Under the pieces are notes generated by a model. It was not told the origin of the DNA, ran no database searches, and worked only from the letters and a program-made list of their open reading frames with translations. Both the position numbers and the translations under genes were made by a program. Of a stretch of 64,000 nt of DNA, positions 786 through 31,696 are shown piece by piece (the first letter of the stretch is position 1; each line of letters opens with the position of its first letter). This stretch comes from Branchinecta lynchi (taxonomy: Eukaryota > Arthropoda > Branchiopoda > Anostraca > Branchinectidae), in contig JAKZAP010000012.1 of NCBI GenBank assembly GCA_023053575.1, positions 3,038,230 through 3,102,229 on the forward strand, written 5' to 3'.

Positions 786-834
786 GAAGAGAATATATTT
801 ATTCAAACAATGTTTACACGGATGCGTCAGCTCT

Positions 835-894
835 GATTTTTCATCAGCGATATTTCGGCCCTTCTTGGCAAGGGTCCTCGTCAGGCTGTCAATC
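835..894 (-). ncRNA. Hammerhead-ribozyme-like motif, left arm of copy 1
   Basis: This is the mirror image of the motif at 973-1032, because the arms are perfect reverse complements. On the minus strand: core CTGACGA at 884-878, stem II, GAAA at 856-853, then TATC and the GCTG half of stem I. Fold and caveats are as for the right-arm motif. Confidence 0.6.
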
Positions 895-972
895 TTCTTG
901 TTCAACTTCGGGGAAGGAAACAAACCTGTAACTGGTTACAGGTTTGTTTCCTTCCCCGAAGTTGAACAAGAA

Positions 973-1032
973 GATTGACAGCCTGACGAGGACCCTTGCC
1001 AAGAAGGGCCGAAATATCGCTGATGAAAAATC
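973..1032 (+). ncRNA. Hammerhead-ribozyme-like motif, right arm of copy 1
   Basis: Order on the + strand: GATT (973-976) and CAGC (979-982) form the 5' side of stem I. The core CTGACGA is 983-989; the seventh-position base is variable in hammerheads. Stem II is 990-1010: GG/CC, one bulged A, CCCTT/AAGGG, six-base loop. GAAA is 1011-1014. A1014-T1017 (ATAT) is self-complementary, as in minimal stem III hammerheads that work as dimers. C1018 is the predicted cleavage base. GCTG (1019-1022) and AATC (1029-1032) close stem I around an internal loop. All invariant core bases are present; the bulge in stem II makes activity uncertain. Confidence 0.65.
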
Positions 1033-1138
1033 AGAGCTGACGCATCCGTGTAAACATTGTTTGAATAAATGTTTCAAAGTCAGCTTGGGCTCAAAGAATA
1101 TTTATGAAGAGAATATGATATTATTTTTTTTTTTATAG

Positions 1139-1228
1139 CAATTCTTCCCCACCGAGATGGTGGATCTGGGAGAAAATGAAGACATACTAACAGAATCAAC
1201 ATCACTAGCAAAGGCTTACGCACTGCAG
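1139..1228 (+). CDS. Grb7/10/14-family adaptor, internal exon before the PH domain
   Basis: This 30-codon exon is phase 0 at both ends. It is bounded by a long T-run acceptor ending TTTATAG (AG 1137-1138) and a consensus donor CAG|GTAAGT (1229). It encodes a peptide containing QFFPTEMVDL. Vertebrate GRB7, GRB10 and GRB14 have a closely similar FFP..MV segment just upstream of the PH domain. It joins in frame to the exon at 24174. Family role: these adaptors link activated receptor tyrosine kinases, including the insulin receptor, to downstream signalling through RA, PH, BPS and SH2 domains at the plasma membrane. Which vertebrate paralogue it is closest to cannot be decided. The exon lies 22 nt from a transposon TSD. 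Confidence 0.8.
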
Positions 1229-2627
1229 GTAAGTCGTTTGGCATTAGTTTAGATGTCTGTGTAATTTTTCAGTGTGTTTTCTATGTTTCTTGCGCCTCTT
1301 ACGTTTGGTTGTTGCGAGTATGTCCTTTTTCTCACTGTTCTTTGTTTATTTTTTGTTTGTTTAAAGGACACGTGAACAATGAAACCATACTTGAACACAC
1401 CATGGAGAATGCATTTACAGACATGGACACGGAGAGCAATCTTCTCCTGAGCGTGACATTTTCAAAATAGGGATGATTGCTTCTGGAGGTTTGCACATGC
1501 AGACTCCAAGACAAAAAGCGCAATTCATTCAAATATTGTACAGCGCTGGCCGGATCGTATTGGAATTTCTTCTAGATATACGTTTGGGCTTATCTGGTTA
1601 AAAATATTCCAGAAGAAGGGTTGATTGGAGACATATGTTCATTTCTAAAGTTGCTCGGTACTGAAATAAGGACAGATGCAAAATGGAGCAAAAATCATAG
1701 CTTTGAAACGGTATTTTGTATTTGGATTGGGTTTTCTACAGGCTATGTTAACGGACGTCACACAGATAGGGATGATACTTGGTACTCTTCATTCAGGTGT
1801 CCTTTAATAACTCCGTTTTCTTGTACATTTGTTGGGCAATCAATTTGTAATTAAAATAACAATGGTTACTGTATGCTGTACTGTCCCTAGGTCTTTTTTT
1901 TTTGGAACTGCTTTAGCTGTGAAAGTTCGGGATGGAAGCGTCCTAGAAATACTCTGCAATCGCTCTAGTATTCGATCGCAAATTTTATGCTTCAAATTTG
2001 AAATTGTTATTGAGCTTGTTAAAGTATATTTTTATTGTACAGGTGTGCTAGAAGACCTGTCTTGGCTGTCTGTATAGCTATGTACAGCTATATAAATGCT
2101 TCACTCTGCTTCCCTAGCCGTTCAGTCTTCAGTTTTATTAAATAAATAAAAACACAAAGTAACATAAAACTCTAGCCTACTGTCAGGAAAGTACAAAAAG
2201 GAGCGGTTGGCTAGGGCTGGACGAGCTGGACAACTAATGATGAATATGAAGGAAAACAAGATTGCAGAGGAAACAAAATACCATGGTTTGAACTTTTAAT
2301 ATTAATTAAACATATTAGAGGTTTTATAGCTACAGTTTTTATTGACATGGCACTCGGGGCTTTTTTTTATAATATATTCTGTACTATTATATTCTTAATT
2401 CTGCGAACAGTTTGTGTGATAGAGTAACCACCCACTCGCGCCGTACGCCATCCGGCTCCTATTGGTTCAGGATTCTCATTCAGACTGCATTCGGGGAACC
2501 GGAGAACTGAGTTAATTTTTATACTTTTGATTCACATGTTTTCACTTGCTAGCAGGGTTGCCAAGCATGACACTATGGTGCATTTTGATACCTTTGGCCA
2601 CCACGACGAACTTTAATAAAGTACAAA
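1229..2627 (+). other. Intron sequence, no gene seen
   Basis: This is the start of the 22.9 kb intron between the first two exons. I see no coding sequence. A block at 2188-2230 (GTCAGGAAAGTACAAAAAGG, then TTGGCTAGGGCTGG) recurs at 26305-26350, marking an undefined dispersed repeat. An AAAT-rich stretch at 2135-2155 may be an old retroposon tail. Confidence 0.5.
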
Positions 2628-3880
2628 AACAAGAGCTGGAAGCTCATATGGCACTTGCAAGGCTGGTTCAGAGGATGAAATATAGAATTTGCCTTTTCGT
2701 GGGTCTGTTCTTATCATTTGTAAGCAAAACTCTGGAGATAAAAATGAAACTGAACCCTTGGAAACCACAAGAATGTATCATCATCAAGAATGTATATATA
2801 ACACCCTTGAGACAAAAACGATAATAGGCCCTTGGGGATCATTAATATATATTGTTTGGTCAAAGGTATTTTTTCGCTTTTCGGTTAAGTTGCGCACTTT
2901 AAGTGTGCAAAAGATAATTTTTTTAAGAAAAACTATTATGGCACAAATGACCATGGACCGAAATGTATCGTTTGATTTAAAGTACTTTCTGACTTTTCAG
3001 TTAGAATTCGCTCTTTAAGGGAGCTAGAAATTAACTTGTAAGTTTTGTAAAGGCTGGGAAGAAAGGTTTGCTTATTGAATTATAATATTGAAAATTCATT
3101 TGCTGAATTTGTTTACAATTTGTGTACTGGAAGTTTTTTTTTTTTTTGCATCTGTCCCATTCTAGCTCTTTGCGTTAATAAATACCCATCTTTCTGTGCA
3201 TTTGTCTATACCGTCCTTTAGAGGATTTAGCAAGTCCTACTAATCTAAGAAATTTTAAAATCAGGTCGGATTCCTGAGGATATTGAAAGACCTTCCCAAA
3301 TGATCTGATAGGTTTTCTTTTGGAATTATAACATCCTAGGTATTTTTTCACTTTTCGGTTAAGATGCGCAGTTTAAGGGTGCAAGTGCAAGAGATAATTT
3401 TTTTTTAAGAAAAACTCTTGTGGCACAGATGATCATGGGCCGAAATATATCATTTGGTCTAAAGTACTTGACTTCGCAGTTAAGATGTGCCCTTTAAGGT
3501 AGCTAGAGGTTCACTTGTAAGTTTTGTAAAGGCTGGGAAGAAAAGGTTGCTTATTGAATTATATTTTATTCATTTATTTATTATTACATTTGGGGTTAAG
3601 CTTTTAGCTTGTCGCCATATTATTGAATATTTATTTGCTGAATTTGTTTACAATGTGTGTGTTGGAAATTAGTTATTTTTTTGTATCAGTCCCGTTTTTG
3701 CTTTTTACGTTAATAAATATCCATCTTTCTGTACATTTGTCTATACCGTCGTTTAGAGGATTCAGTTAATAAGTCCTCCCAATCTAAGCATTTTTAAAAT
3801 CAGGTCGGATTCCTGATTATGTTGAAAAGACCTTTCGCAAATGATCTGATAGGTTTTCTTTTGGAATAATAATATCATAT
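2628..3880 (+). repeat. Repeat R-C with an internal tandem duplication of about 475 bp
   Basis: The segment beginning GGTATTTTTTCGCTTTTCGG near 2866 is repeated from about 3341, with matching landmarks throughout: TAAGTTTTGTAAAGGCTGGG, CATCTTTCTGT.CATTTGTC, and ATCAGGTCGGATTCCTGA. The upstream part (AAGAGCTGGAAGCTCATATG, CTGGTTCAGAGGATGAA) is found in reverse complement near 44170-44240, so the family also occurs at 43521-44240. A GGGGTTAAGCTTTTAGCTTG block near 3593 recurs near 42170. No coding potential is evident. Confidence 0.7.
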
Positions 3881-3906
3881 CGTATGTGCACGTGTCACTT
3901 GTCCTT

Positions 3907-4141
3907 TATTCAAACAATGTTTACGACGGATACGTAGCTATGATTTTTCATCATACGTCATTCTTCATCATACGTCATTTTCGTTCATACGTCAGCTATG
4001 ATTCTTCACCTCGTCAGTCTGACGAGGACCCTTGCCAAGATGGGCCGACATATCGCTGATGAAGAATCATAGCTGACGTATCCGTTGTAAACATTGTTTG
4101 AATAAATGTGTCAAAGTCAGCTTGGGCTCAAAGAATATTTA
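3907..4141. mobile_element. Hammerhead-bearing element, copy 2, with 12-bp TSD
   Basis: The perfect TSD TCACTTGTCCTT flanks it at 3895-3906 and 4142-4153. It starts TATTCAAACAATGTTTAC and ends with the GCTTGGGCTCAAAGAATATTTA-type tail (split here into its two recognisable blocks), as in the other copies. The right arm carries a mutated hammerhead: core CTGACGA at 4019-4025, but GAAA has become GACA (4047-4050) and stem II has a mismatch. The left arm is rearranged, with repeated CATCATACGTCATT units and no stem II, so the palindrome is incomplete. Probably ribozyme-dead. Confidence 0.8.
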
Positions 4142-4188
4142 TCACTTGTCCTTATCTGTCGAGATGAGGTTTTAATCATACCCATCTG

Positions 4189-4375
4189 CAGGCCCGTATC
4201 CAGGAATTTATTTCGGGGGGCGGTTTGCCTTTCGGGGGGGGGTTATTGCCTGCTGCTCGGACAAAAAACGTTCAAATAACACATAGATCAGAGGGAAAAG
4301 CCTATAAAATCGTTATTTTTATGTTTCGGGGGGGGGGGGGGGGGTCCGGCGGTGTATTTGTGGTGGAGGACATAC
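4189..4375 (+). mobile_element. Poly-G hAT-like MITE, copy 1 (right end degraded)
   Basis: It begins CAGGCCCGTATCCAGG and contains two G-tracts (about 4216-4222/4236-4245 and 4325-4343) plus the internal landmark GATCAGAGGGAAAAGCCTAT. The same layout is found at 21662-21841, 36625-36806 and 44337-44494, where 8-bp duplications define the ends. The terminal inverted repeat is missing on the right here. Confidence 0.7.
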
Positions 4376-5079
4376 GCCCTTCATAAATCCCCTTCCAGAT
4401 TAATTCTGTTTTTGTCGGTAGATGCTCTAGCATAAAATAAACAATGACACGTTATTTCTTGCTGTAGGTTTAACCAGGCTCGTTTGGCTATTTTCAACTC
4501 CTACTAGGCTCAGCCATGTTTAAACTGATTAAAATGTCTCGGATCTGCCTCTACCCTACTCTGTTCTGTCAACATCGTCAAGTTTGGCAATCTTAGTTGC
4601 GTTTTCAGGCTCGCGATTCTTAACCCGTGGTCACGAGTCGTTTTTACGGAGCGCATCCAGTGCGTATCCGAACATGGGTTCCGTGTTCTGTGGCTTCAAG
4701 CGTTTTAGCTCCCGTAGTCCTTTCGAGTTCAACACCGAATTCCAAACACAAATGGATTCGGTAGAGTACCAAATCCTGTTCCGGGTTCTTATATGCAGGA
4801 CACGGGCTCTAAAAATGGGTGATAGCGCAACGTGTTAGGGTTCGACTCAAACGCTAATAGCTGAAAACGCAACTCTTAGCTTCCGACTTTCAGTGCTGAC
4901 TGACTTTCCCACGGGGCTAATGCACGACTCGGTATGAACCGACAAATAACTTACACCAAGATCTAACGTGTGATTGTTGCTAATGCTAATGCGCGACTCG
5001 GTATGAACCGACAAATTTTCACTTATCCCCCATCAGATAACTTACACCAAGATCTAACGTGCGATTGTTATTGTTTCTC
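4376..5079 (+). other. Intron sequence with a short tandem duplication
   Basis: No gene is seen. A segment with CGACTCGGTATGAACCGACA and AACTTACACCAAGATCTAACG is duplicated in tandem (about 4918-4985 and 4983-5072). A third partial match to its end lies at 10716-10752, on the other side of the DNA element at 5084-10685. Confidence 0.5.
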
Positions 5080-5083
5080 TATT

Positions 5084-5600
5084 GGGTCATTCCAGCGAAA
5101 TAAAGCCAGGCAAAAAAATCGATTTCTCAGATTTTGACGAAAATTTCTCAGAATGATCTATCAAGGCCCAGGACCTTCCCAATTTTTTTTTCGGCGAAAA
5201 AATTTTTTTTTTTTTGAAAATTCCGGCCAAATATTCTATTCTTGATGGTCGAAAAGTCAATATTTTTCAAAAATTTTGAAAAAATCAGGGAAATTCAGCA
5301 CAGCGTTCAAATTGTGTGAGCTTCTTACCTACCTTTAGGACTTCAAATCTCGAGATGTTCAAGTATGTAGGTACTTTTCTCTTCTTTTTACGGTAATTTT
5401 GGCAAGGTAAGGTAAAAAAAAGTGGGTCTTGCTAGATCCACTCAAGAAGAACCGGCCAGATTGCGAAAATTCTGAGATTCCCCATGATATTAGATTGAAA
5501 AACGAGCGACATTTTCTGCATTAGCACATTTGTGGCTATCGAGCCAGAAATGGTCTTAAATAGCGATGTTAGAAAACTTAAATTCTTGGGGAATTGCATT
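5084..5600 (+). repeat. Left inverted arm of the DNA element
   Basis: It is the reverse complement of 10153-10685 with scattered substitutions and short indels, including slippage in T- and A-runs. No ORF is present. Confidence 0.8.
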
Positions 5601-5773
5601 ATTTTTATGACAAAATAAATTAGTCTCTCAACCTAAAAATAAAAATGAGAAATGGATTTCAGTTTTCAGATCTTACTGTTAGACCACAACCTGGACCAAT
5701 TCTTCGCTGTCCAAGGGCCCGAAATCTTCTCGTTGGCTAACTTTCAGAAACTTACTACACTACATGCTTTTGC

Positions 5774-6033
5774 TTTTTGGGATCCCAAAACGTAAGTGGA
5801 GGGATACCTATGACATCCGCAAAAGTTGTCCGTCCGTCTGTAAGCACGATAACTCTCGGAAGGGAATGAGATATTTTGATGAAACTTGGTACGAGGATTG
5901 TTTGGGTCAAGGGTAAGGTCGAGTTCGTAGATGGGCTCTGTAGCCCTATATTTGGGGGTGGGGGAGGGGGTTCAGTTTAAGGGACAAACAAAATATTTTT
6001 AAACAGCTAATGTGATAGTCGATTATGGGGTAA
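5774..6033 (+). repeat. GGATCC-headed repeat, truncated copy
   Basis: It starts with TTTTTGGGATCCCAAAACG and continues through ATAACTCTCGG, GATGAAACTTGGTACGAGGA and GATAGTCGATTATGGGGTAA. It is cut at 6033 by the 3' tail of the LINE. Fuller copies lie at 13435-14491 and in the array at 59063-62724. Confidence 0.75.
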
Positions 6034-6136
6034 AATAAGATAAGAGATAAGATAAGATTTAATTGCACAAAAAAGCCAAAAGGCCATGGCAACAAGATAA
6101 ACAAAAAAAAGAACAAAGATCAATACCGTAACCTAC

Positions 6137-6460
6137 TTACTCTAGGCATAATTTTCGGTGTTGAAAAGCGACCCTGAGGAATCTTGCCAGCCTCCTCACA
6201 TCACCAAACTGCCGGCTACCAATCATACTACACATCCATTCCTCATCGAACACCCTCACGCATTCTCCAAACACTTCATTCCTTAACTCTCTTAATTCTT
6301 CACATTCACACATGACATGCACCACACTTTCATTCTCATCTCCACACATTGGACAGGAGAAATACTGACCAGAACGTTCGGAAGAACTTCCAATATATGT
6401 TCTTCTTCTCCCAAGCGGTAAACAATCTGCCCTGAGACACCAACCACACCAACTTAACTT
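6137..6460 (-). pseudogene. Frameshifted C-terminal zinc-finger region of the LINE ORF
   Basis: A second minus frame continues the protein with LRADCLPLGRRRTYIG, then CPMCGDENESVVHVMCEC, a C-x2-C-x8-H-x4-C finger, and ends at 6137. The corresponding region is in one frame in the relative at 40394-40846 (CPMCGHEDESVVHLMCDC). This shows that a single-base indel near 6440-6475 has split the ORF. Otherwise the coding sequence is well preserved. Confidence 0.8.
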
Positions 6461-9400
6461 CCTCCTTTTTTAAAAACACCTTGAAAAATATTTCCTCCCC
6501 CCACACCTCTTTAGCCTTAGCATAATACCTCAATGAATGTGACAGATCCTTTGCAACCTGCCAACTCTGAATTTCTTGGTCTAAAAGCCTAGCCTCCACC
6601 TCTTTTTTTATTTTTCCCAATTGCAAACCAGGACCTACGCCATCATTCCACCACATTGACAATCCACAACCATCTAAAATACATCTTATTTGTGAAGACC
6701 ACGAATCTATTCTAGTATCTAAAATACTCTCTTTATAAGCCGCCTTGAGGATCCTTACTCTCGGCAGCATCAAAATCTTTTCCCAAAAACCTATCATAGC
6801 TACCCATCTATGTCTACGCATGCTTGCTAAACCTAAATCCCCCTTAACTACTAATGAATTCATTTTTTCACTAACCCCTAAAATTCTTTTGAAATAACTT
6901 AACTGTAATTGTTCTAATTTTTCCCCCTTACCAAAACCCCATATTTCAGATCCATAATGGACCGCAGGTATAACTTTAGACTTAAATAAATGTTTATGTA
7001 ATTTTAAATCACCGATTTCCCTAAGGCTACTCCGTAACATCATATTAATACAACGCTTTCCTTTAGCAAGACTATTCTCAAACTGCTTTCCAAAATTTCC
7101 GTTCCACGTAAGCGTACATCCTAGGTAATTAAATTGTTCTTTATAACTAATCGGCTCTCCTCTAAACTTTAACAACGGCTCCTGGTCTATTTTACCTCCT
7201 TTCCTAAAAACCATTACAACTGTTTTTTCTATGTTTATCTCTAGCTCCTTTACTGCGAGATATTCATCCAAAATATCCAACAGCTTCTGAAGATTATGCC
7301 TTGATTCCGCTATCAATGCAATATCATCCGCGAATAACAACAAACAAATTGTTACTATGTCAATATTTATTGTTGGCGCATTTTTTTCAATCATAAATTG
7401 TTCCAAATCATTAATATAAATAGAGAACAACTTCGGGGATAGAGTACACCCTTGTTTAACTCCCTTTAACGATTTAATCCTCCGTGACACATTTTTAAAA
7501 ACTCTAACGACTATGTATATTTTAGCATATATTTCCACTATTAACAAAACTAATCGGCTAGGTAGGCCAATACTCACCAGTGCTTCCATCAGTAAATGGC
7601 GCTTAACATGATCGAATGCTCCTTTCAGATCCACAAACGCAACATATAACCTTCCTCTTCTTTTCGCTGTATATTTCCGAATTATTACTTGTAAACTAAA
7701 TATTTGGTCCAAAGTACTGTACCCTTTCCTAAAACCTGCCTGGACCCTAGTTAACTTATCTGTCGTATCTAACCACTTTTTTATTCTAACGTCTATAATT
7801 TTACAAAATAACTTACTTATTGTAGATCCTAAATGGATCCCTCTATAATTATCATGACATTTCCTATCCCCCTTTTTAAATATTGGTACCACTATCGATA
7901 TATTCCACTGACTAGGCCATGTTGCTTTTTCCACCATCCAAGAAAACGTCAAAGCCAGGAACGGTAAAACATAAACTCTGCTCCACTTTAAAACTATTGT
8001 CGGTATGCCGTCTGGTCCTGGAGCTGACCTACCTTTCATAGATTTCAGGGATGCTGTTATAGGATCTAAAAGCTGCGAATCTACCTCTTTCAATGGAAAA
8101 CAATACATAGTCTTAAGATCCTCCACAAATTGTTCAGGTAACTTATCCCCATCACTCATTCCTCCTTCTTTTTCTTCCAAAAATTCCGGCCATGACTCCG
8201 CCGGAGGGACGTTCCATTGTTCCTTATTACTAATCGTACACTTAACACTATTCCAAAACTCCCTAGTGTTCTTTTCCCTAAAACTCTTTATCACTTCTTT
8301 TTTATTTTCTTCGTCTATCCTACTTTTCTTATTTTTTAACAGGTTTTTGTATTTTTTTCTCTCAATACGATACTTTTCTAAACATGCTTCTACATTTTCT
8401 GGGGGACTACTTTTCAACATTTTCAAACATGCAACTACGACCGTTCTCATTTGTTTACATTCACTATCGTAAAACGTATTTTTATTTCTATTTCCTTTCC
8501 TCTTATTTCTGCTCACCTCCAAACCAACTTCATGCAATTTACCTGTCAGCTGTTCAAGGGAACTTTCAATTTGGCCTTCCGTAAGTCTTTCAATACAACT
8601 TCTCACATGGATCTCCATATCAACTTGAACCAGCTTTTCAGCCAACTCTTTTTCCGAAAATTCCTCTGTTTTTAACGATTTCCTAATATCCACAGGACCT
8701 TCTACATGAATTAATTCATTTTCCATCACCACATGCATTGTCCCTGTACCATGATTATTTTCAAATTCAAACATCACATTCAATGGGAGGTGGTCAGAAC
8801 CGATCACATTCTTTACACTCAGATTCTTGCAAAAAGGCCAAAGTGTAGGACAGAGTAACACGTAATCAATTAAGCTTGGGAGCTTACCCGCGTAACACGT
8901 AAAATGACCCCCTGCTTCCCGATCCTCCCCTATCCTCCCATTCAAAATTATCAACTCTTCATTTCCCGCAAAATCCAACAAATTTAGACCCCACCTGTTT
9001 TTCCGGCGATTCTGGTCCTTACTTCTCCTCTCACCATAATTTCCGATGTACTCCTCTAGAAGCTGGGAAGACTCCTCCGGGTCCATTCGCAGTTCAACAT
9101 TTTCCATCATACGACCGGTATAAGCATTGAAATCACCTAGAACAATGAATCCATGATTATGAAATCTTTTTCGCAGGGTAGACATTTCATCACATAGTAT
9201 ATTCCAACTATCTTCATTTGAGTACGAACTTGACTGGGGCGGTATATAAACACAACACACAATTATCTTACGGGCAAAAATATTTCCTTTCAACCATACA
9301 ATGTTTTCCGACCTACTTTTTATTCTCTCCAGCCCTTTCAAAGTATCTTTTTTAACTAGAATGCTTACCCCCCCATATACCCTACCATTTTTACTTGGCT

Positions 9401-9608
9401 CTCTACAACTTTCAAAACTTTCAAAACCTTCAACATTCATACTTCCCCTTTGCCACGTTTCAACCAAACATATTATGTAACACCGGCAAACACACTCATT
9501 TATTAGACTTAACATTTTTTCACTCGAATATCCTTGGATGTTCCATAACGTTATCCCCAGTTGGGTCGAACTCGCTAAAGGTAAACGTTGCTCATGGCCC
9601 GCGTGACA
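6336..9608 (-). CDS. LINE endonuclease / reverse transcriptase (ORF2-like)
   Basis: The frame opens right after a TAG at 9609-9611 and reads TQLGITLWNIQGY, a typical start of an APE endonuclease domain. The first Met is at 9515. Counting from it: endonuclease motifs LVETW (17-21), LGDFNAY (about 124), SDHLPLN (about 240). Reverse transcriptase motifs are APGPDGIP (about 496), QAGFRKGYSTLDQ, FVDLKGAFDHV, GVKQGCTLSP and LLFADDIALI (FADD about 727-730). Catalytic aspartates are present. The function would be nicking of the target and target-primed reverse transcription of its own RNA. Near 6440-6475 a one-base frameshift switches into a wrong frame that stops at 6336, so the C-terminus is lost. 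Confidence 0.85.
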   Translation of the reverse strand, partial: CHAGHEQRLPLASSTQLGITLWNIQGYSSEKMLSLINECVCRCYIICLVETWQRGSMNVEGFESFESCREPSKNGRVYGGVSILVKKDTLKGLERIKSRSENIVWLKGNIFARKIIVCCVYIPPQSSSYSNEDSWNILCDEMSTLRKRFHNHGFIVLGDFNAYTGRMMENVELRMDPEESSQLLEEYIGNYGERRSKDQNRRKNRWGLNLLDFAGNEELIILNGRIGEDREAGGHFTCYAGKLPSLIDYVLLCPTLWPFCKNLSVKNVIGSDHLPLNVMFEFENNHGTGTMHVVMENELIHVEGPVDIRKSLKTEEFSEKELAEKLVQVDMEIHVRSCIERLTEGQIESSLEQLTGKLHEVGLEVSRNKRKGNRNKNTFYDSECKQMRTVVVACLKMLKSSPPENVEACLEKYRIERKKYKNLLKNKKSRIDEENKKEVIKSFREKNTREFWNSVKCTISNKEQWNVPPAESWPEFLEEKEGGMSDGDKLPEQFVEDLKTMYCFPLKEVDSQLLDPITASLKSMKGRSAPGPDGIPTIVLKWSRVYVLPFLALTFSWMVEKATWPSQWNISIVVPIFKKGDRKCHDNYRGIHLGSTISKLFCKIIDVRIKKWLDTTDKLTRVQAGFRKGYSTLDQIFSLQVIIRKYTAKRRGRLYVAFVDLKGAFDHVKRHLLMEALVSIGLPSRLVLLIVEIYAKIYIVVRVFKNVSRRIKSLKGVKQGCTLSPKLFSIYINDLEQFMIEKNAPTINIDIVTICLLLFADDIALIAESRHNLQKLLDILDEYLAVKELEINIEKTVVMVFRKGGKIDQEPLLKFRGEPISYKEQFNYLGCTLTWNGNFGKQFENSLAKGKRCINMMLRSSLREIGDLKLHKHLFKSKVIPAVHYGSEIWGFGKGEKLEQLQLSYFKRILGVSEKMNSLVVKGDLGLASMRRHRWVAMIGFWEKILMLPRVRILKAAYKESILDTRIDSWSSQIRCILDGCGLSMWWNDGVGPGLQLGKIKKEVEARLLDQEIQSWQVAKDLSHSLRYYAKAKEVWGEEIFFKVFLKKEEVKLVWLVSQGRLFTAWEKKNIYWKFFRTFWSVFLLSNVWR

Positions 9609-10151: not shown

Positions 10152-10152
10152 T

Positions 10153-10685: not shown

Positions 10686-10689
10686 TATT

Positions 10690-13434: not shown

Positions 13435-14491
13435 TTTTTGGGATCCCAAAACGTAAGTGGAGGGAGACCTATGACATCGCAAAAGTCCGTCTGTAAGCAC
13501 GATAACTCTCGAAGGGAATGAGATATTTTGATGAAACTTGGTATGAGGATTGTTTAGGTCAAGGGTAAGATCGAGTTCGTAGATGGGCTCTCCAGCCCTA
13601 TATTTGGGGGTGGGGGAGGGGGTTCAGTTTAAGGGACAAACAAAATATGTTTAAACAGCTAATGTGATAGTTGATTATGGGGTAAGAAGACATGCTGAGC
13701 ACGATGGTGACAACCATTTTCTCGCCGGACAAGTAGTTCGTCCGGAATCCGGCAATAACCGGAAAGTTTGTTAAATGTAAAAGTTTCATTTGAAGTTGAT
13801 TAAATGTTTGATTTAGGGGTAAGAAGACATGCTGAGCACGATGGCGAAAATCATTTTGTCGCCGGACAAGCAGTTCGTCCGGAATCCGGCCAAAACCGGA
13901 AAGTTGGTTAAAAGTAACAGTTTCATTTGAAGTTGATTAAATGTTTGATCTATGGGTAAGAAGACATGCTGAACCCGATGGTGAAAACCATTTTCTCGCT
14001 GGACAACTAGTTCGCCTGTAATCCGGCCAAAACCGGAATATATGTTAAAGGTAAAAGCTTTATCTGAAGTTGATTAGATGATATCTTGAGGGGTAAGAAG
14101 AGACGCTGAGTCTGTATATAATGATCATTTTTTACCCGAACATATAATTAGTCCGGAATCCGGTTGTACCCGCATTTTTTTTAAGTCAAAATTTTATTTA
14201 AAGTTGTTTAGATTTCTTTATAGGGATGACGCCGGCTTCGTTTCTGAATGTTTCTTTTTTTGCTGGACTAGTAGTTCGCTCGGAATTCGGGCGAAACCGC
14301 AAATTTGGCAGTAGTAAAGCAGGAAGTTTCGGTCAATATCGTCAAAATAGATATGGCTTATAGAGGTATAGATAGGTAGATAGAATATCTGAACTCGGTT
14401 TTCTCTGATGATTAGCCTGGCGAAGACAAGACCGAATTGTGTGGATCAAATCTTAGATTTTTGGGATCCCATCGACACCTTTGGTCTTGTT
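13435..14491 (+). repeat. GGATCC-headed repeat, near-complete copy
   Basis: The head is TTTTTGGGATCCCAAAACG and the end is TTTTTGGGATCCCATCG ... CCTTTGGTCTTGTT. In between are several ~135 bp subrepeats, each with AAGAAGACATGCTGA, a CGGACAAGTAGTTCG-type block, GGAATCCGGCCAAAACCGG and GAAGTTGATTA. ORFs in it are by-products of the repeat. Confidence 0.8.
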
Positions 14492-14743: not shown

Positions 14744-14754
14744 AAAAAAGGCGC

Positions 14755-18303: not shown

Positions 18304-18344
18304 TATAGAAGATACAGTTGTTTAACTAGTGAACTGAACGGCGA

Positions 18345-18428: not shown

Positions 18429-18430
18429 CA

Positions 18431-22776: not shown

Positions 22777-24173
22777 TCGTTATTTGGTTTTGAACGAAAC
22801 CTTACTTTTCATTGATTAGTATTTCATTGATTCTGTATTGTGATATAATAAATTTGTGTTTGTTTGGTTAGAAACTTATTGCTAGTTATCTCTGGCAACA
22901 ACCTGGTTGTTATTTTGTAAATCGGTGATGAGTTTTCATGGCGTAATTAAGTATATGAGCTCAGGCATGGAACGATTTTTTTTTTTTTTTTAGTACAGGT
23001 GAACGAGTCATTAATTTATCCATTTGTTTTGATTGTTGTGGTGTTATTATAGGTATTATTATCGAATTAATTATACCATTCCCGAGTCCCCAATTGTTGA
23101 AATGTGTGTTTGTACTTTTTGCCAAAACCAGAAAAGCAAGCACCATAAGACGTGGGAATATTTTTTTTGAGATTTCAGCGAAATCTTTGAATATTTGGTT
23201 TTTTGGGTGTCCAGACCAGCGGAATCAACTCCGAGCTCCCCTGGTGTTGTAAAGTGTATTGTTGCATTTGACGTTGCAAAACGGATTAGTCTGCTACATT
23301 TTATTAGAGCTATATTTCGGCCCTTCTTGGCTCTTCAGGCTCAAGCTGGAAAATGAACTTGTGATTGTTGATAACAATGAACCAGAAAACCTGAACCCAA
23401 ACCAGGGTTGTCCGCAGTATTTAGGAAAGTTTTCAAATACGCGTACCTCTACTGTATTTGTTGTAAGGTTGAACGAGTTGTAGGCAAGATTTAGTGAATA
23501 TAGGCTCCTGGGGTGTGGGTTGAAGACATTCTGACACCGTAGGTGCCCACTAGCCCCAGAACCAGTCAGGAAACCGGACATATCGTAAAAGGCAAGGGAA
23601 AGCCTCGGGGGATAGGCTACTATAGTTCAGCCGCAGTCAATCCAGAAATCCCTAATCAAGCTGGTTCACACATCCTAGCGAAGCTGGAATTGACATATCC
23701 AGTCAAGCCCTAGGTCTACTAGCCGAGATGGACCATAACGTAGATCACTCTACTCGTATGGCAAATCATATACAAGGCTGGACATAAATTATATTCAGTT
23801 CAATTCAATCCAGATTTTATCACCATAATATAAAAGCATGGCAGTTATAGCATTGACAACACGTTGAGACAGTACAAAACGAACCAGAAATATTTGAAAT
23901 TCAGGGCATTTTGTTATAAAACTTATTAAAATACGGCACAAATGTTTTTAAAAATCGCTCAGATGAATTGGCACGAGGTTGGTCAATCTGCTTTTAACTT
24001 CATATATACAATTCGGTTTAAAGTTTAGTAGAATGGTGCGGTGTTGATCGGACTCAAGGCACTGGAGACCAAATTTCATAACAGCTTCATATAGCACTAA
24101 TGGGTCCCTAACTAAGTATATAAACAACTCTTACGTCTCACTAACATATTTAATTCATATTCTTTTGTTTCAG
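22777..24173 (+). other. End of the large intron; degraded repeats
   Basis: A fragment at 23299-23345 reads on the minus strand AGCCTGAAGAGCC then AAGGGCCGAAATATAGCTC, a shortened relative of the hammerhead-type motif with poor stem II. Near 23785-24070 a minus-strand coding-like relic (VLYEAVMKFGLQCLESDQ) with a TTGAATTGAA tail side suggests an old LINE 3' end. The acceptor TTTTGTTTCAG at 24163-24173 ends the intron. Confidence 0.45.
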
Positions 24174-24356: not shown

Positions 24357-24619
24357 GTTAGTATAAGATCAGTTTTAGTTTCATTTGTCAGTTTCATTTG
24401 ACTATATTTAAAAACGCTCATATGGCACTTGTACGGACAGTTAGTATGTTTTTCAGATACGGTTTGCAGTTGTCAAGGCTGCATCTCTCTCCCAATACTC
24501 ATTTCATCAGAAAATCGGCTTGATCTACTAAATCGGATATGGTTATTCAACTCACTGATAACTGTTTCTCCCACAACGATGATCAGATCGGGGGAGGGAC
24601 TATTTTTTTTTTTTTTTTT

Positions 24620-26270
24620 TTTAAGCCAATCTTAAAGAGTCCCTACCATGCCTGCGAAGTTTGATGGTCATAGCACAGCCTACCAAGTTTCATGGTCGTA
24701 GCACATTTGGAAGTACCCCAGCTCGCGATGACCAGAATAGTGGAAAATCCTCTCAAACTCCTCCAACTGTGACATGATCCAGTTCTGTTTTGTCAGTATT
24801 GTCTCTACGGCTTAATATGCTTGTTCTTTCCTCAAAGTCCCAACCGATCTCTCGACTCTAAGCGTTTCACGGGATTTGTTGCACCCCCCTCCAGCCCCCC
24901 CCCCCCCCCCCCCAGTTATTGGATTCGTTCCAGACCTGAAATTGATCATCTGAGACACTTGTTCTTGACACTTGTCAAGTTTCATTCACGTCCGATCACC
25001 CGTTCTAAAGTTATGCATGCCGCTAGATCCTGGATTCCCCATCCCTCCACTCCCCTCAAGATCACAGTATCAGGGAACGAACTATTTTCAATTTGACCTG
25101 GGAGAGTACCTAATATGTCTGCCAAATTTCATGGTCCTGTTTATCTGGAAGTACCCTAACTCGCGATCACCGCGGAAATCTAGGAAACCCCCTCCGACAC
25201 CCTCCACTGCGACACGATCCGGTCCTATTTTGTCAATAAAGTATCTAGGATTAATGCTCGTTCTTCCCTTCAAATTCCATCCCGATCCCTCGACCCTAAG
25301 CGTTTCACAAGATTTCCAGTCCCCCCTCTACCAGTTATCGGATTCGGGCCAGATTTGAAACTGAAAATCTGAGAAACATGTTCTTCACACTTGTCAAGTT
25401 TCATTCATGTCCGATTTCGCGTAACAAATTTATGTATGTTTCTAGTTTCCGGGTTCCCCATCCTCCACTCCCCCCGCGATGGCTGGATGGGGGTAGTGAT
25501 TATTTCCAAGTTAATCTGGTCGGTTCCCCTCATATGCCTTCCAAGTTTTTTTGTCCTAGCTTATGTGGAAGCGTTTCAGGAGATCTCCGCTCCCCCCCAT
25601 GCAGCCCCCCCCCCCCCCCACAGGTATCGAATCTGGTCCGGATTTGAAAATGAATATCCGAAACAGTTGTTCTTGACCCATGTCAAGTTTCACGCATGTC
25701 CCATTAGCCTTTCCAAAGTTATGCATGTTAATAGTTTCCGGATTTCCCATCCTCCACTACCCCCACTATGATCGGATCTGGAAAGTGATTATTGCCAAGT
25801 TAATCTGGTCGGTTCCGTGATATGCCTGCCAAGTTTCATTGTATAGGCCTATGTGGAAGCGTTTCACGAGATTTGTTTAGTTTAATTTTAGTTAGATTAG
25901 CATCAGAGCAAAATTTTGTTCTGGTTAGCATTTAGCATTCGTTCTGACCACTTAGGTCTTACTTTAATCTTTAAACCGTATTTGTATCGGCATCTGGCTC
26001 TAAATACAACCAAGCGTATCGCTTTTGGTAGAGTGCCACAGAGATCGTTGATCGATACCGCATTTGGACATCGCTCTTTTGCTCCCCTTTTGCTATCGTT
26101 GTTCCTAGTTTCCGGACTCCCGGATCCGGGGAAAGTCGTATCGGGGAAGTGATTATTTTTAAGCTAATATGGTCGGATCCCTGATTATGCCTGCGAGGTT
26201 TCATCGTCCTAGCTTGTGTGGAAGTGCCCGAACTAGAAAAACCTTGACAGACCGACGGACGGACAGAAAT
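24620..26270 (-). repeat. Satellite-like block of ~200-250 bp units in intron 2
   Basis: Repeating landmarks are CTGCCAAGTTTCATGGTC, GTGGAAGCGTTTCA..AGAT, CCCATCCTCCACTCCCC, TCTGGTCGG and TTGACACTTGTCAAGTTTCA, with long C-tracts near 24895-24913 and 25605-25620. The reverse-complement family lies at 42545-43520. The many short ORFs are artefacts of the repeats. Confidence 0.7.
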
Positions 26271-26284
26271 AAAAAATGTCATAA

Positions 26285-26483
26285 AAAAATACACAATTAA
26301 TATTCCTGCCAGGAAAGCACAAAAGGAGTGCTTGGCTAGGGCAGGGGAATAACCCATATTACAACTTATTGAATATTTTATGTAAAGAAAAGGAAGGAGA
26401 CGAAAATATAAACCAATTGATAGATTTGATAGAAATAACCAAGATTTTAGTGGGTTGCCTGGATCAGCCATTGTGATAGAAGT
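26285..26483 (-). repeat. Dispersed repeat fragment R-D
   Basis: GCCAGGAAAGCACAAAAGGA and GGCTAGGGCAGGG match 2188-2230. It precedes the hammerhead relic. Class unknown. Confidence 0.45.
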
Positions 26484-26600
26484 ATTCAAATAAAGTATAC
26501 AACGGATACCTCAGCTACGATTCTTCAACAGCGATATTTCGGCCCTTCTTGGCAAGGGTTCTCGTCAGGCTGGCAATCTTCATGGTGAACGACCTGTTTG
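26484..26600. mobile_element. Hammerhead-bearing element, truncated copy
   Basis: The left part begins ATTCAAATAAAGTATACAACGG, matching the starts of the other copies, and includes one arm with the ribozyme-like motif on the minus strand. The second arm and the usual tail are missing. No TSD was found. Confidence 0.65.
26519..26578 (-). ncRNA. Hammerhead-ribozyme-like motif in truncated copy
   Basis: On the minus strand: GATT and CAGC, core CTGACGA (26568-26562), stem II with CCCTT/AAGGG, GAAA (26540-26537), TATC, GCTG and AATC. All core bases are intact. In stem II the second pair is an A/C mismatch instead of G-C. Confidence 0.55.
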
Positions 26601-28149
26601 TCTCTTTCCCCGACGTTGACCCTGAAGATTTCGCGAACTCGCATTTGCGTAGGCGAATTTGACGTCGCTAGCGGAAAAAATTCGCTTTGCTAGGCAGAAA
26701 TTTCGCGCCACGCCGTTTCACCTCCAAGCAGAGATGGGCGAATTCGAATCCGGATTCGGACTCGAATCCAGGATTCGTCCTTTTGGCCGGATTCGAATCT
26801 TATGCTTGTCAGGGATTCGGACTCAAATTCCTAGACTTCATCATTCCAGTTTCCGTCTTCCCAATTTTTACACAGTGTGCTTAGGCAATCCAACTTTTTT
26901 GTCTCCACCACCAAACATCCTCAGTAATTTATTACGTTAGCACACTCTTAAAGGTAACCGCTATTCACAATATCACGAATAATCGATGTTCATATTGTGG
27001 TCTTTCCCTGTCGGACTTGTGGTACCTCTACACTTGTGCTCTGCCTTTTTTGTATGCTTGACAAAAACAGTTCACGAAAAATATATGGCAGATTGTCAGT
27101 ATTCTGACAATCTATTTCACAAACATGAAATTGATTGGGTGGCAGGAAAACGTGACGATGAGGGCTTGACATTCGTCCATATATATTTGAGCCACGACGT
27201 TCACCAGCCTCACCATTGGCCACTGAAAAGCCGAGTTTGTTTTGAGACCCAGTGCTTACGCGGCATAGTAGAACATCGTTGTGGGAAAGACTAGAGATTC
27301 TGAACGTCACTACTAGAGTACATAGTGGAAAATCAGAAATCCCTCAACACAGTTCAAATAATTCAGTGTATTCAGTTAAATGGGGCAAAAATAAGTTTGC
27401 TTTTCAGTTAAACTTTAACTTCACTTTATGTACATACTTATGTAAAGACCGGCTCTTCCCTTTTGCCTTGCCCAAATATACAGAATCCGTTTATTCAAAT
27501 TTGTATCTAATTCGTATTTTAAATTCGCAGTATAGAATCCATTTATTCGAACTTCTGTGTCAATATCTTCTCTGTCTTAATAACGCGAAAATATTTTGTG
27601 ATTCTGTCATATCTTTAAATGTTTTCTTTGAACCTTTACTTTTCTATATTGCTCGGCTCCTCAGCTGTACCCTAGAAGCGGATCACGAATACAAAAACTA
27701 TCATACATTGGCCTTATACTTATCGTACGTACATATTTACATTTTCTTACTATTTTGTATCGAAGCTGTTTCGTAGTAAGTAAACATTTTTCTTGTCCAC
27801 TACTATATACACCGCTGCTCTGTCAAAAATCAGTTATTCTGTCAATTATTAGCCTACTAATAAGGGTTGGACGTGCTCAGAGGCGTTACTAGCCAACATT
27901 TTTTTTTTTTTGGGGGGGGGGGGGGGGCAAGGTATTTGCCGACTGGCTGGTCGTTTGTACCGACTGTTTCTGCAGCGCAAACTACTGTTAAAAAAACGAC
28001 TGTTTTGACGAGAAACCGACTGTTTCAACAAAAATCGACTGTGCCCAAGAAAAAGCAATCGTGGCGCTTTTCGCCGACTCGGCTATTTTTGACCTTACTT
28101 GAGGCCCCTGATGGTGCTACTATCTCCTGCATTCTTCCATTTCTTTCAG
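26601..28149 (+). other. Rest of intron 2
   Basis: A patch at 26735-26830 has repeated TTCGAATCCGGATTCG-like palindromes. A perfect hairpin AGATTGTCAGTATTCTGACA..CT lies near 27092-27115. A T-then-G run at 27898-27926 recalls the poly-G MITE but lacks its ends. The 174-codon ORF at 27252-27776 has no recognisable feature. The intron ends at the acceptor CATTTCTTTCAG. Confidence 0.45.
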
Positions 28150-28371
28150 AGTGAGAACAGCGACAGTGGTGACCTGGATGAATTCGCCGACCTCACCAAA
28201 TGTGGCGTCTACACCACGGTCAACGCCAAGAACCACTTCAAAGCACCGACCGAGTTCGGGTTGGCGCTCAAGCTACCCGGTCCCGAACCACTTGAGGCTC
28301 GCATGTGCTGCTTGGCGTGCGATTCAGAAAGAGCGAGGCTGTGTTGGCTGACTGCGATGCGACTTGCCAGG
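28150..28371 (+). CDS. Grb7/10/14-family adaptor, exon with second half of PH domain
   Basis: 74 codons, phase 0, acceptor TTTCTTTCAG, donor AGG|GTAGGA. It encodes EFADLTKCGVYTTVNAKNHF, KAPTEFGLALKLPG and ERARLCWLTAMRLAR. These match the GRB10/14 pattern of ADL-(S)-N-(I/V)-(F/Y), (A/S)PT(D/E)-G-(C)-KP and the C-terminal helix with its invariant Trp (E-RTCW-TA-RLLKYG). The exon stops exactly before the expected YG. GC content is clearly higher than in the flanks, as expected for host coding sequence. Downstream exons (BPS, SH2) are not found within the window, so the next intron is over 35 kb or later exons are missed. Confidence 0.9.
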
Positions 28372-28786
28372 GTAGGACTTCCCTATCATCTTCCCCCCCC
28401 CCCTCCGAGCAAAATAACAATAGGGAGAAGCGCCAAGACGTATGCTTTCCATGCTTTGCAAACGGGCCATACTCGTAGCACCAATTACGCTCGCGGCATT
28501 TAAAGCGAGACAAACTTGCGGGATTAGAAATTTCAGTCTAGCAAAGGTGCGCTGTGCGCACACCAAGGTAACAATCTAGGTTGTATAAATTGTTTGTATA
28601 AATGTTCAGGATATGAAGCTATTGGAGCCAGCGCTGGTGAAAGACTGATTGAGTGTCTGTAGAGACGTTCTATATCGCTAGTGGTGCTACTATCGCTGCT
28701 ATTAGAGTGTGTGTTAATTTTGTCAAGTCATGGTGCTACTACCTAGTGTTATTTTGCTCTGCCCCCCTTTACATCCCAGTCATCCC
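28372..28786 (+). other. Start of the downstream intron
   Basis: No gene is seen. It contains GGAGCCAGCGCTGGTG at 28626-28641, shared with the SINE-like head at 18345-18428. Confidence 0.4.
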
Positions 28787-29250
28787 GAAAAAAAAACCTG
28801 ATATTCAGTCACGTCACTAAGTGCCAAACTTCTTTCCCACTTATTTGACAAAAATTGATGAAAGGTCAGATGACTTTTTCAGATACCACGATCAGTTAGC
28901 ACGGGCACTATAATAACTGTAAAAATGCCTTTTAACCTTGGTATGAGATACCATGATAACTGCAAAAACCACTTTAGACCGTGGTATCACAAACCATTGT
29001 ATACGCTACTAATAATACTTGCGTTTTTGCAAATACAATGGTATCTGATACCACGGTCAAAAGGCGTTTTTGCAGTTATCGTGGTATCTGGCCTGTTATC
29101 GTGGTATCTTATATTCTGATACCAAGGTCCGACCGTGTTAACTGATCGTGGTATCTGAAAAAGTCATCTCACTTTCATCAGTTTTTGTCAAATTGGTGGG
29201 AGAGAAGTTTGGCACTTAGTGATGTGACTGAATATCAGTTTTTCTTTTCA
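28787..29250. repeat. Foldback element with ~200 bp arms
   Basis: CTGATATTCAGTCACGTCAC at 28798 pairs with GTGACTGAATATCAG ending 29238, and the pairing continues inwards (AGTGCCAAACTTCT, ATGACTTTTTCAGATACCAC, GATCAGTTA). The centre is near 29018. GATACCACG / CGTGGTATC recurs several times in both orientations, so it can also fold into smaller hairpins. No TSD was assigned. Confidence 0.75.
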
Positions 29251-29615
29251 GCTGATTTCGAAAAGCGCAATTTCGGCAATTGGCGTTTTTACTGCGGCCA
29301 CAATCAGGATACTTTTGTCTTAAAAGTGGCCGTAATGATACATTGTTTGTTTAGTTTATATGTTTTTTGATGAAATTAAAATAAAATTCTAAAAAAATAA
29401 AAAATGTTTATAGCCACTAATGTTTTGGGATCCAAACCTCAAGTGAGGGACAACTATACATATACATATATATATTTGATTTATGGCTCACAAAATTCGC
29501 CAGTCGACAGCCGAGTAATAGTAACTATGCCATCGCACATTTTCCAGCCGGTTCGTCTATTTGTGAGTGTGATTATTCCCTAGCGAACGGAATTGACGGG
29601 ATTGAATTGACAAAC

Positions 29616-29860
29616 CAAAAATAAGTAAGTAAGTAATTTATTTATAACCCACAACTTCGAAAAGAACGGAGTAAATGAAAGAAAATAAATAAAACACAGA
29701 AAGACACTGATTTTCAATCTTCGGCCAGGAAGCAGTGGAGAAGGTCGTGCGCTGGTTGGGCTGTGTTGTCAATGATTTTTTATAGCGAAATTTTGAAATA
29801 AAGGCCGAATTGGGAGGCATTGCGACAGGTGGCTTAGGAATCTGGTATCGGAAAAAAAAA
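29616..29860 (-). mobile_element. LINE 3' UTR fragment (family of 32725-36300)
   Basis: On the minus strand it ends GGGTTATAAATAAATTAC followed by an ACTT-type tail (29619-29636), the same end as the LINE at 15022-16640. Only the 3' UTR is retained; 5'-truncated near 29860. A single TTTTGGGATCC relic of the GGATCC repeat lies upstream at about 29423. Confidence 0.55.
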
Positions 29861-30120
29861 ATACGCTTGACTAAATGAAGATCAATTGAGTCAATGATTT
29901 TGTTTACCCGTTTTAAACAAAAGTATGACGAATAGAGGATAGAATAAAAAAGAAAGAAGGAAAAAAGAATCGCACTAAACTAACAAACAAACAAAAAATT
30001 AGAGCAAATAGCCTGGTACAGGTACTTAAGGTACTTAAGAAAAGCCTGGTACAGGCTGTACTGGGGATCCAGCGACTGCAGAAACTTTTCCCTACGGATG
30101 TTAATGACTTTTATTCAAAC

Positions 30121-31357
30121 AATAATAATAATAATAATAATAATAATAATTTATTGGAAAAAGCCTAATACGGCCATACAACAGATTCCTGAAGCGCCAA
30201 CAACAATTTATAACACTAATAATGAAACACAAACTATTTTCTTCTTTTCATTGCATTCAAAACGAAAGAAACTACCTCACGGATTACACTTTTATTTGTC
30301 GACTTTAAGATACCAGGGAAGAGAACACCACCAGCCATCCCAACTAAACCCAATGAAGGAAGCTCTTGGCACTGTCCTAGAAGGTAGTCAATGGTATCTT
30401 GCCCAGTGCAACAAAGTGGGCAATTGTAGTTCTCCTCACCGACCTGTTTTCTCCTATCAAAAACTTTCTGTCTGTACCGTAATGGAAGAGAGTTAGTCCG
30501 GAGTTGGAACCATACCCTAAGTGCCTGCGCCGACAATCCTAATTTAAAATAATATTCAAATCCAAAAGTAGTTTTTATTTGTCTATAATAAAATAGTGTC
30601 TCTGATTTATCCAATGCTGCCTGCCAATTTTGAATTTCCTGATCCCGTAATACCTGCTCAAACTGTCGCAGCAACTGTGGCTGATCATCTGGTCCCAAAC
30701 CATCGTTCCAAGCCAAAGATAAACCTGCTTTATCGAGCATGGCTTTCACTTGGAGTGGCCAAGACCGAGAACCCTTCGACTCCATTAATTCTTTATATGC
30801 AATTTTTAGTAACCTGTCTTCGGGTAACCGAACTAACTTAAGCCAAAATCTAAGAATTTGAACTAGCCTAAGATTCCTCATAGATTGAATCCCAAGTTCA
30901 CCCGCTACTGCCTGGGTATGAGTTGTTGGATGTAATCCAATCAGTCTCTTGTAGTGAAGCAGCTGAATCGACTCCAATTGTACCGCAGCTTCGAATCCCC
31001 AAACTTCAGCTCCGTAATGAATTGTAGGAAGGATTTTTGATTGGAAAATATGTTTATGCATTTTTAGGTCTTTTAGTCCCGAAACCACTGAATTTCTCAG
31101 TAAAGCCGAAGAAGTCATCCTCCCTCTTCTTTTCATTTCAAGGAGGTGATCCTTCCAACCCCCATTCTGGGATAAAGTAACCCCTAGGTATTTAAACTTA
31201 GCCGACTGTTGTATTCGGTGACCTCGGTAATAAAAATTCCACTCCTCACTTGGTTTTCTTCCCGTGAAAACAACTATTTCAGTCTTTTTTACATTTAAAT
31301 TTAATCTCTTTCCTTCCAAATAATCTGAAAGGATGTTTAAAGAAAGGTCTGAAAGGT
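30121..31357 (-). mobile_element. 5'-truncated LINE nested in the hammerhead element
   Basis: The 3' tail is (ATT)n at 30121-30150 on the minus strand, preceded by a TATGGCC...AGGCTTTTTCC 3' UTR block. Its 5' break at 31357 joins the palindromic element in mid-arm. No clear TSD of its own is visible. It must be younger than the element it interrupts. Confidence 0.8.
30234..31319 (-). CDS. LINE ORF C-terminal fragment (after the RT catalytic core)
   Basis: An open frame of 361 codons, still open upstream to 31357 (SLNILSDYLEGKRLNLNV). It begins after the YADD box. It contains KYLGVTLSQNG, the thumb-like region HIFQSKILPTIHYGAEVWGF, and a Cys/His finger CPLCCTGQDTIDYLLGQC near the end. It aligns along its length with the LINE at 6336-9608 but is a different family member, with the reading frame intact through the finger. 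It lacks endonuclease and catalytic RT motifs, so it cannot act alone. Confidence 0.8.
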   Translation of the reverse strand: MEGKRLNLNVKKTEIVVFTGRKPSEEWNFYYRGHRIQQSAKFKYLGVTLSQNGGWKDHLLEMKRRGRMTSSALLRNSVVSGLKDLKMHKHIFQSKILPTIHYGAEVWGFEAAVQLESIQLLHYKRLIGLHPTTHTQAVAGELGIQSMRNLRLVQILRFWLKLVRLPEDRLLKIAYKELMESKGSRSWPLQVKAMLDKAGLSLAWNDGLGPDDQPQLLRQFEQVLRDQEIQNWQAALDKSETLFYYRQIKTTFGFEYYFKLGLSAQALRVWFQLRTNSLPLRYRQKVFDRRKQVGEENYNCPLCCTGQDTIDYLLGQCQELPSLGLVGMAGGVLFPGILKSTNKSVIREVVSFVLNAMKRRK

Positions 31358-31383
31358 TTGTTTACAACGGATACGTCAGCTAC

Positions 31384-31443
31384 GATTCCGCATCAGCGAT
31401 ATTTCGGCCCTTCTTGGCAAGGGTTCTCGTCAGGCTGTCAATC
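31384..31443 (-). ncRNA. Hammerhead-ribozyme-like motif, left arm of copy 4
   Basis: Minus strand: GATT (31443-31440), CAGC (31437-31434), CTGACGA (31433-31427), stem II, GAAA (31405-31402), TATC, GCTG and a closing AATC (31387-31384). The core is intact. Confidence 0.6.
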
Positions 31444-31555
31444 CTCTGGTTCAACTTCGGGGAAGGAAACAAACCTGTAATAAATAACTGAAGCTTATAC
31501 CGACTATAAATATCTTATTAAATAATATATAAATATCTTTTCAAATAAAACAGAG

Positions 31556-31613
31556 GATTGACAGCCTGACGAGGACCCTTGCCAAGGGGCCGAAATATCG
31601 TTGATGAAGAATC
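31556..31613 (+). ncRNA. Hammerhead-ribozyme-like motif, right arm of copy 4
   Basis: Plus strand: GATT (31556-31559), CAGC (31562-31565), CTGACGA (31566-31572), stem II shortened by a small loop deletion but still CCCTT/AAGGG, GAAA (31592-31595), TATC with C31599, GTTG (31600-31603, a G-T wobble in stem I), AATC (31610-31613). The compensated stem despite the loop deletion supports a structured RNA. Confidence 0.6.
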
Positions 31614-31696
31614 GTAGCTGACGTATCCGTTGTAAACATTGTTTGAATACATTTTTCAAAGTCAGCTTGGGCTCAAAGAATATTTATGTTAATGAC

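Follow-up and report, generated by a model that had tools for sequence, protein, structure and literature searches.

Penelope-like elements (PLEs) of Adineta vaga and Anolis carolinensis are the closest described relatives of short inverted-repeat elements found in a 64,000-nucleotide stretch of Branchinecta lynchi DNA (assembly GCA_023053575.1, contig JAKZAP010000012.1, positions 3,038,230 to 3,102,229 of the forward strand; this whole stretch is called the window), whose arms carry hammerhead ribozyme motifs. Pen2a and Pen3a of Adineta vaga have a single open reading frame (ORF) of about 840 codons that starts within the pseudo-long terminal repeat (pLTR), and are described with inverted pLTRs of which one bears a 31-bp tail, target site duplications (TSDs) of 8-10 bp, palindromes at the junctions, partial tandems and foreign inserts flanked by pLTRs (PMC3846280). 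Poseidon of Anolis carolinensis (PAc) carries a hammerhead in its leader, and its protein cuts and extends both target strands in vitro, with two adjacent start sites near the ORF start whose interval equals the tail (PMC11167929). The hammerheads of PLEs are described as minimal; most of helix III is absent, and they may function as dimers (PMC7761336). In the sections of these papers considered here, to which all our statements about them are limited, some steps of PLE insertion are left open (PMC11167929, PMC3846280) and the role of the hammerhead is called unknown (PMC7761336).

The window elements are very probably pLTR-reduced insertions of an endonuclease-containing PLE that has a hammerhead in its pLTR and is inserted by two-ended reverse transcription. 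What they reveal, by insertions reduced to the pLTR, is a genuine PLE family that carries a hammerhead motif; the kind is known while the family is new. ORF organization, inverted pLTRs, one-sided tail, TSDs, palindromes and partial tandems are all shared with Pen2a and Pen3a. As head-to-head pLTRs with a single tail and short TSDs have already been published for PLEs, this arrangement is standard, and the original prediction, made from the sequence alone, was mistaken in calling unusual what is the typical Penelope structure (PMC3846280). The differences from the Adineta vaga elements lie in the hammerhead, which PMC3846280 does not mention (0 occurrences), and in the very high copy number and many pLTR-only insertions seen here. 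PAc resembles the present PLE in its leader hammerhead and in two reverse transcription starts that are a tail length apart near the ORF start. Its main start, however, lies 111-118 nt into the ORF, whereas the ends found here lie at about +1 and +36, and its ORF starts at hammerhead stem II, whereas the present start codon is located 51 nt past the predicted cut. Cutting and extension of both target strands, observed in vitro for PAc (PMC11167929), are proposed for the present PLE. Metazoan retrozymes have the type-I hammerhead, short units and TSDs in common with the window elements, but consist of direct tandem units with canonical hammerheads and form circular RNA, while here the tail holds a PLE ORF start (PMC7229834). 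Terminons, giant telomeric retrotransposons, also contain PLE-like minimal type-I hammerheads and can be likened to the present family by description (PMC7761336).

Structure of the elements and identity of arm and tail

Three TSD-flanked inverted-repeat elements (A, B and C) and a solo arm (D) lie within the window. Element A (797..1105) is flanked by the 11-bp repeat GAAGAGAATAT (786-796 on the left, 1106-1116 on the right) and consists of two head-to-head arms (797-932, minus strand; 935-1070, plus strand) of 136 bp each, 100% complementary and separated by a 2-nt spacer, to which a tail (1069..1105, plus) with an ATG at 1069 is added on one side only. Each arm holds a hammerhead motif (845..888, minus; 979..1022, plus), the right one with a predicted cut after C1018, the C of GAAATATC. 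Element B (3907..4141), between 12-bp copies of TCACTTGTCCTT (3895-3906 and 4142-4153), has a rearranged left arm and a right arm that begins at 4015 with a decayed hammerhead (4015..4058, plus; GAAA changed to GACA), followed by a tail at 4106..4141 (plus). The TSD of element C (30109..31686) is TGTTAATGAC, 10 bp long or 11 bp counting a shared A (30099-30108 and 31687-31696). Its left arm is interrupted by a 5'-truncated fragment with an (ATT)n tail (about 30122..31358, minus) and a 375-codon frame (30234-31361), which gave no Pfam match and is called LINE-like (for long interspersed nuclear element) by reading. The hammerhead motifs of C are found at 31394..31437 (minus) and, with a deletion in loop II, at 31562..31603 (plus); its tail (31651..31686, plus) has a mutated start codon. 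D is a truncated pLTR (26483..26590, minus) with a hammerhead at 26529-26572. The perfect TSDs of 10-12 bp that had been predicted for the three elements are thus present. A common start, which is the reverse complement of the arm end, is found in A, B and C (with one mismatch in C), as is the exact tail in all three; the prediction had extended both to D, which has no tail and a degenerate start not found at up to 2 mismatches.

An endonuclease-like frame lies 5' of a direct arm in one of the stretches fetched from elsewhere in the genome (designated by L numbers), and pieces of the same C-terminus precede direct arms on their 5' side in L014 and L028 as well. A search of the 575.7-Mb assembly with this frame gave 5,893 first-look candidates; among the subset of 150 matches that were scored, 18 lie in open frames of 863 codons, some follow one another on one strand at intervals of about 3,019 bp, and many form minus/plus pairs. 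Thirty loci were fetched, including overlapping ones and ones from a shared array, and in every one the arm is located 3' of the endonuclease end on the same strand. L060 contains a 6.5-kb tandem and inverted array with a 13-bp TSD; it comprises two truncated copies, one inverted and one direct, the copy that holds the 863-codon frame, and a closing arm. The 863-aa ORF (L060:3805-6393) starts with MSQSQLGLKEYL where the pLTR ends, and this start is matched by the tails of A (MFQSQLGLKEYL), B (MCQSQLGLKEYL) and C (IFQSQLGLKEYL). Each arm is thus a PLE pLTR, and the one-sided tail consists of the first 12 codons of that PLE's ORF. This bears out the predicted retroelement nature and link to Penelope, and it replaces the proposed separate non-autonomous family with pLTR-only PLE insertions.

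Among the best 7,996 candidates scored in a protein search, 30 homologues of the ORF at 25 to 37% identity were found, with precomputed RVT_1 annotation in 24 and GIY-YIG in 2. When four of them were rescanned with Pfam, P0015 and P0016 passed the cut-offs for both domains, P0001 passed that for RVT_1 with GIY-YIG just below its own, and P0028 had neither domain. The 863-aa ORF aligns with the homologues at the YVDD and GIY...YVG...R...E residues. Judged by sequence, it would thus combine reverse transcriptase and GIY-YIG endonuclease in one ORF as in endonuclease-containing PLEs, and the tandem and head-to-head pLTRs, the ORF-start tail of 30-40 bp on one pLTR and the short, variable TSD agree with that class. 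Pfam scans of the endonuclease frame and a protein search with its 247 aa gave no matches; one search of Protein Data Bank (PDB) sequences was without match and another returned two matches no better than chance (E 0.9). Exact DNA matches in viral contigs numbered 0.

The family is abundant. The core pattern CTGACGA-N4..30-GAAA has 26,461 matches in the assembly versus 8,218 for the reversed pattern, which makes a copy number in the thousands likely. Neighbours less than 500 bp apart, as counted in the first 100 listed places of a genome pattern search, were oriented minus-then-plus in 15 cases, plus-plus in 1 and plus-then-minus in 0. Twenty stretches (L009-L028), hand-picked from the first listed core-pattern places, some for minus/plus neighbours and none for tails, contain eight more head-to-head elements, whose direct repeats measure 9 to 13 bp; direct arm pairs also exist (L014, L023). 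Thousands of PLE-derived pLTR copies in one genome form a natural data set for studying insertion and the role of the hammerhead. In L010 (1831-1966) an arm of the main subfamily lies between two arms of a subfamily with AAGC/GCTT in stem I, all within one 11-bp TSD, possibly as a result of a template switch.

End positions and the single tail

Exactly one arm is tailed in all 32 TSD-flanked elements that were scored, the left in 15 and the right in 17, and none has two tails or no tail. If each arm acquired its tail independently, a single tail would be expected with a probability of at most 50% per element, or about 2e-10 over all 32. TSDs in this set measure 9-14 bp, with at least 9 bp needed for inclusion; among up to 2000 random flank pairs, a direct repeat of at least 9 bp occurred in 41. 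The set comprises the 3 window elements, L060, 15 elements from L061-L080, 8 from L009-L028 and 5 from L030-L059 (L036, L038, L042, L049 and L051). L064 (one arm), L069 (several copies, no 9-bp TSD) and three loci that are complex or truncated at the stretch end (L073, L078 and L080) were left out, and L041, L046 and L047, with opposed arms, were unscored. L020, L021 and L010b have a shorter repeat and one tail each and were not counted; the rest of L009-L028 are single arms, direct repeats or unpaired. The untailed left end of C was read by eye, as the LINE-like fragment cuts this arm, and the untailed arm of L042 matches to +14, with about 10 nt of this match belonging to the TSD.

Positions of the ends are given relative to the PLE leader with the start codon as +1. 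Within L009-L028 and the window, 52 arms could be matched. Their outer ends fall between -3 and +10 in 24, between +31 and +45 in 17 and elsewhere in 11, with clusters at +1/+2 and +36/+37. Inner ends lie between -139 and -127 in 21 of the 52, including 11 at -132. The inner-end peak in L061-L079 is partly ascertained, as the query ended near -133, while L009-L028 and the window are free of this bias. Only one of 50 inner ends, that of element B, is located near the ribozyme cut (-54 to -44). The 24 nt downstream of the cut have 1,872 exact matches in the genome and 1,631 when 8 nt upstream are added, so that at most 13% of copies start at the cut, mutations included (a pattern pair with 3,998 versus 1,280 matches, intended as control for these counts, was confounded by a subfamily variant and was unused). 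Hammerhead-cut RNA is rejected as the usual template; inner ends peak near -132 and not at the cut. In the array of L060 and in L080 and L024 the match continues upstream past -132. This position is thus no boundary there, and we infer that it reflects the 5' end of the RNA. In the sections of the PLE literature considered, we found neither an obligate one-tail rule nor a fixed inner end stated; we claim no priority. The unusually clean end statistics make the question of mechanism testable.

Hammerhead motif

Read by eye in hammerhead numbering, the core is intact in A-left, A-right, C-left, C-right and D, and altered in B-right, where GACA replaces GAAA; B-left has no hammerhead motif. The prediction of all invariant positions in five of six motifs, and of a stem II that survives the loop deletion in C-right, was therefore accurate. 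The motifs have the features of a minimal type-I hammerhead, i.e. the invariant core, stems I and II, a minimal stem III and H at position 17. A strict descriptor (core, at least 4 bp in stem I and at least 4 bp in stem II) identified 3 sites in the window, whereas 100 dinucleotide shuffles gave 0.01 on average and never more than 1; it missed D and C-left, both of which have a stem II mismatch by eye. Folding was carried out for four sequences. The unconstrained fold of 969-1035 in A has hammerhead stems I and II (z -2.3), which is in line with the hammerhead-like nature first proposed, and the L023 segment keeps the inner stems (z -0.6). The best folds of C-right (z -0.6) and of a copy from another family at 51.5 kb (z -1.7) are not hammerheads.

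Covariation was assessed in 28 sequences, i.e. 26 distinct arms spanning the ribozyme segment, with shorter arms and duplicates left out, and 2 copies of another family added by hand. Pairing cells amount to 93.5%, compared with 31 to 51% with a slid partner, and none of 500 shuffles reached the covariation score. In the inner stem I helix, the outermost pair reads CG in 23 sequences, AU in 3, GC in 2 and is never unpaired, although the independent events behind this are few. In stem II, no pair has changed on both sides. Covariation across copies, which had been put forward as a check, is therefore to some extent apparent in stem I and not in stem II.

The 44-nt hammerhead block is a conserved island in a leader that, as far as the aligned copies tell, has otherwise diverged between families: compared with four copies of three other families, 32 to 41 of its positions are identical, while the leader flanks match at 11-14 of 43 and 18-19 of 46 positions. 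The exact 44-nt string is found in 23 of the 30 loci L030-L059. The core reads CTGAAAA in two copies of family 2, and a family 4 fragment lacks part of stem II, so that these copies are probably dead. A protein-coding origin of the motif is ruled out, as it lies in the PLE leader upstream of the start codon. RNA transcribed from A is predicted to form a single long hairpin, its arms being base-paired nearly from end to end, so that its two ribozymes would be unlikely to fold. More plausibly, the ribozyme would act in PLE RNA with direct repeats.

Insertion mechanism and alternative explanations

The single tail of each insertion and the discrete positions at which copying starts and, on the 5' side, stops together favour two-ended priming on uncut RNA. 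The simplest reading is that each insertion involves two reverse transcriptions, one per DNA end, with different start sites on the same RNA. In such a pathway, the PLE protein would make staggered cuts in both target strands, after which reverse transcription would be primed by one DNA end about 36 nt inside the ORF and by the other at the start codon, with a single RNA or closely similar RNAs as template. Synthesis of each cDNA would proceed upstream across the hammerhead as far as the 5' end of the RNA, placed near -132, and the two products would be joined head-to-head; longer inserts could arise from read-through tandem transcripts. While anatomy and end positions are observed directly, the RNA 5' end, copying of the same RNA and joining are steps that we infer. 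Arms are identical in 15 of 25 elements compared, and variants private to one element are common to both its arms in L009, L010, L011 and L013, so that in most cases either both arms were copied from one template or one of them was copied from its partner. Differences in only one arm (30 positions, mostly in L009, L012, C and L016) may be later mutations or, in L009, stem from a second template. The hammerhead would be kept by selection in the PLE leader, yet would not set the 5' end of most inserted copies. For the strictest form, in which every insertion consists of two reverse transcriptions on one RNA with an obligate division between an ORF-internal and a start-codon site and a fixed 5' end about 132 nt upstream that is not set by the ribozyme, we regard the chances as even.

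Several observations weigh against this interpretation. The 863-aa ORF itself has no match in a Pfam scan to E 10, leaving the domain assignment to homologues and alignment. Direct copies in L023 and L069 run on to +107 and +114, outside both usual end sites, and L064 (210-371), which has one arm, no tail and a flanking 10-bp direct repeat, may be a one-ended product. L009 has 14 differences between its arms inside an exact TSD of 11 bp and may stem from two templates, and the near-identical inner ends of both arms also fit fold-back copying. With regard to the ribozyme, the three pairs with both-sided changes were equalled in 58 of 500 shuffles, and Rfam, to which the original prediction had turned for a check, returned no family for the whole window at gathering score and no hammerhead at E<=5 in 750-1150 and 26300-31900 (B lies outside these ranges), in searches whose model has an untried sensitivity to published PLE hammerheads.

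Self-priming, in which the 3' end of a cDNA folds back and copies itself into a palindrome, has been proposed on an antisense template for Penelope (PMC3846280), and would account for the identical arms as well as for inner ends that are near-equal between arms (e.g. -188/-185 in L063 and -133/-133 in A). However, fold-back of a tailed cDNA would give two tails, while all 32 scored elements show one and their other arm ends at about the start codon. Simple fold-back copying is rejected on these grounds, and self-priming as such appears unlikely. Alternatively, the block could resemble a hammerhead without cutting and be conserved for another reason, such as a protein binding site or a promoter. 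Such a function would suit the conservation of stem II as sequence, including its loop, the Rfam result, the folds of C-right and the 51.5-kb copy, and the PAc hammerhead, which cut only with its protein and was dispensable for insertion in vitro (PMC11167929). On the other hand, the core positions, the predicted fold of the A motif and the varying, never unpaired outer pair of the inner stem I helix argue for a ribozyme, and we consider conservation without cutting rather improbable. Least likely by far is a distinct non-autonomous retrozyme-like family that moves as hammerhead-cut circular RNA. In its favour, metazoan retrozymes have type-I hammerheads, TSDs and short units as well (PMC7229834), but the tail is PLE coding sequence, on which ground an independent family of this kind is rejected. 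The copies are also mostly head-to-head (15 of the 16 close pairs) with minimal stem III rather than direct tandems with canonical type-I hammerheads, 1 of 50 inner ends lies near the cleavage site, most genomic matches span the cut, and the arms of A are predicted to pair with each other. No tie to retrozymes, to which the elements had been related, turned up in this analysis.

Neighbouring features

A second PLE family is represented in the window by copies at 51505-51672 (plus) and 56118-56262 (minus) that share the hammerhead block and not the rest of the leader; the ORF start of the former is similar to that of the main family. Both have the CTGAAAA core, are probably inactive and adjoin, by eye, a palindrome of about 75 bp. 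At 23180-23400 (minus) lies a fragment of a related family with GAGC/GCTC in stem I and part of stem II missing. The L060 array (repeats at 364-376 and 6860-6872) is inserted a few nucleotides downstream of the ribozyme block in the pLTR of another PLE family, so that one PLE is nested in the leader of another. Tandem arrays of a 137-bp unit are dispersed at 13671-14110, 54522-54985, 59317-59930, 60455-61302 and 61871-62384, and LINE-like reverse transcriptase frames with an endonuclease/exonuclease/phosphatase domain at 6336-9608 (minus, 1090 codons) and 32704-35493 (minus, 929 codons).

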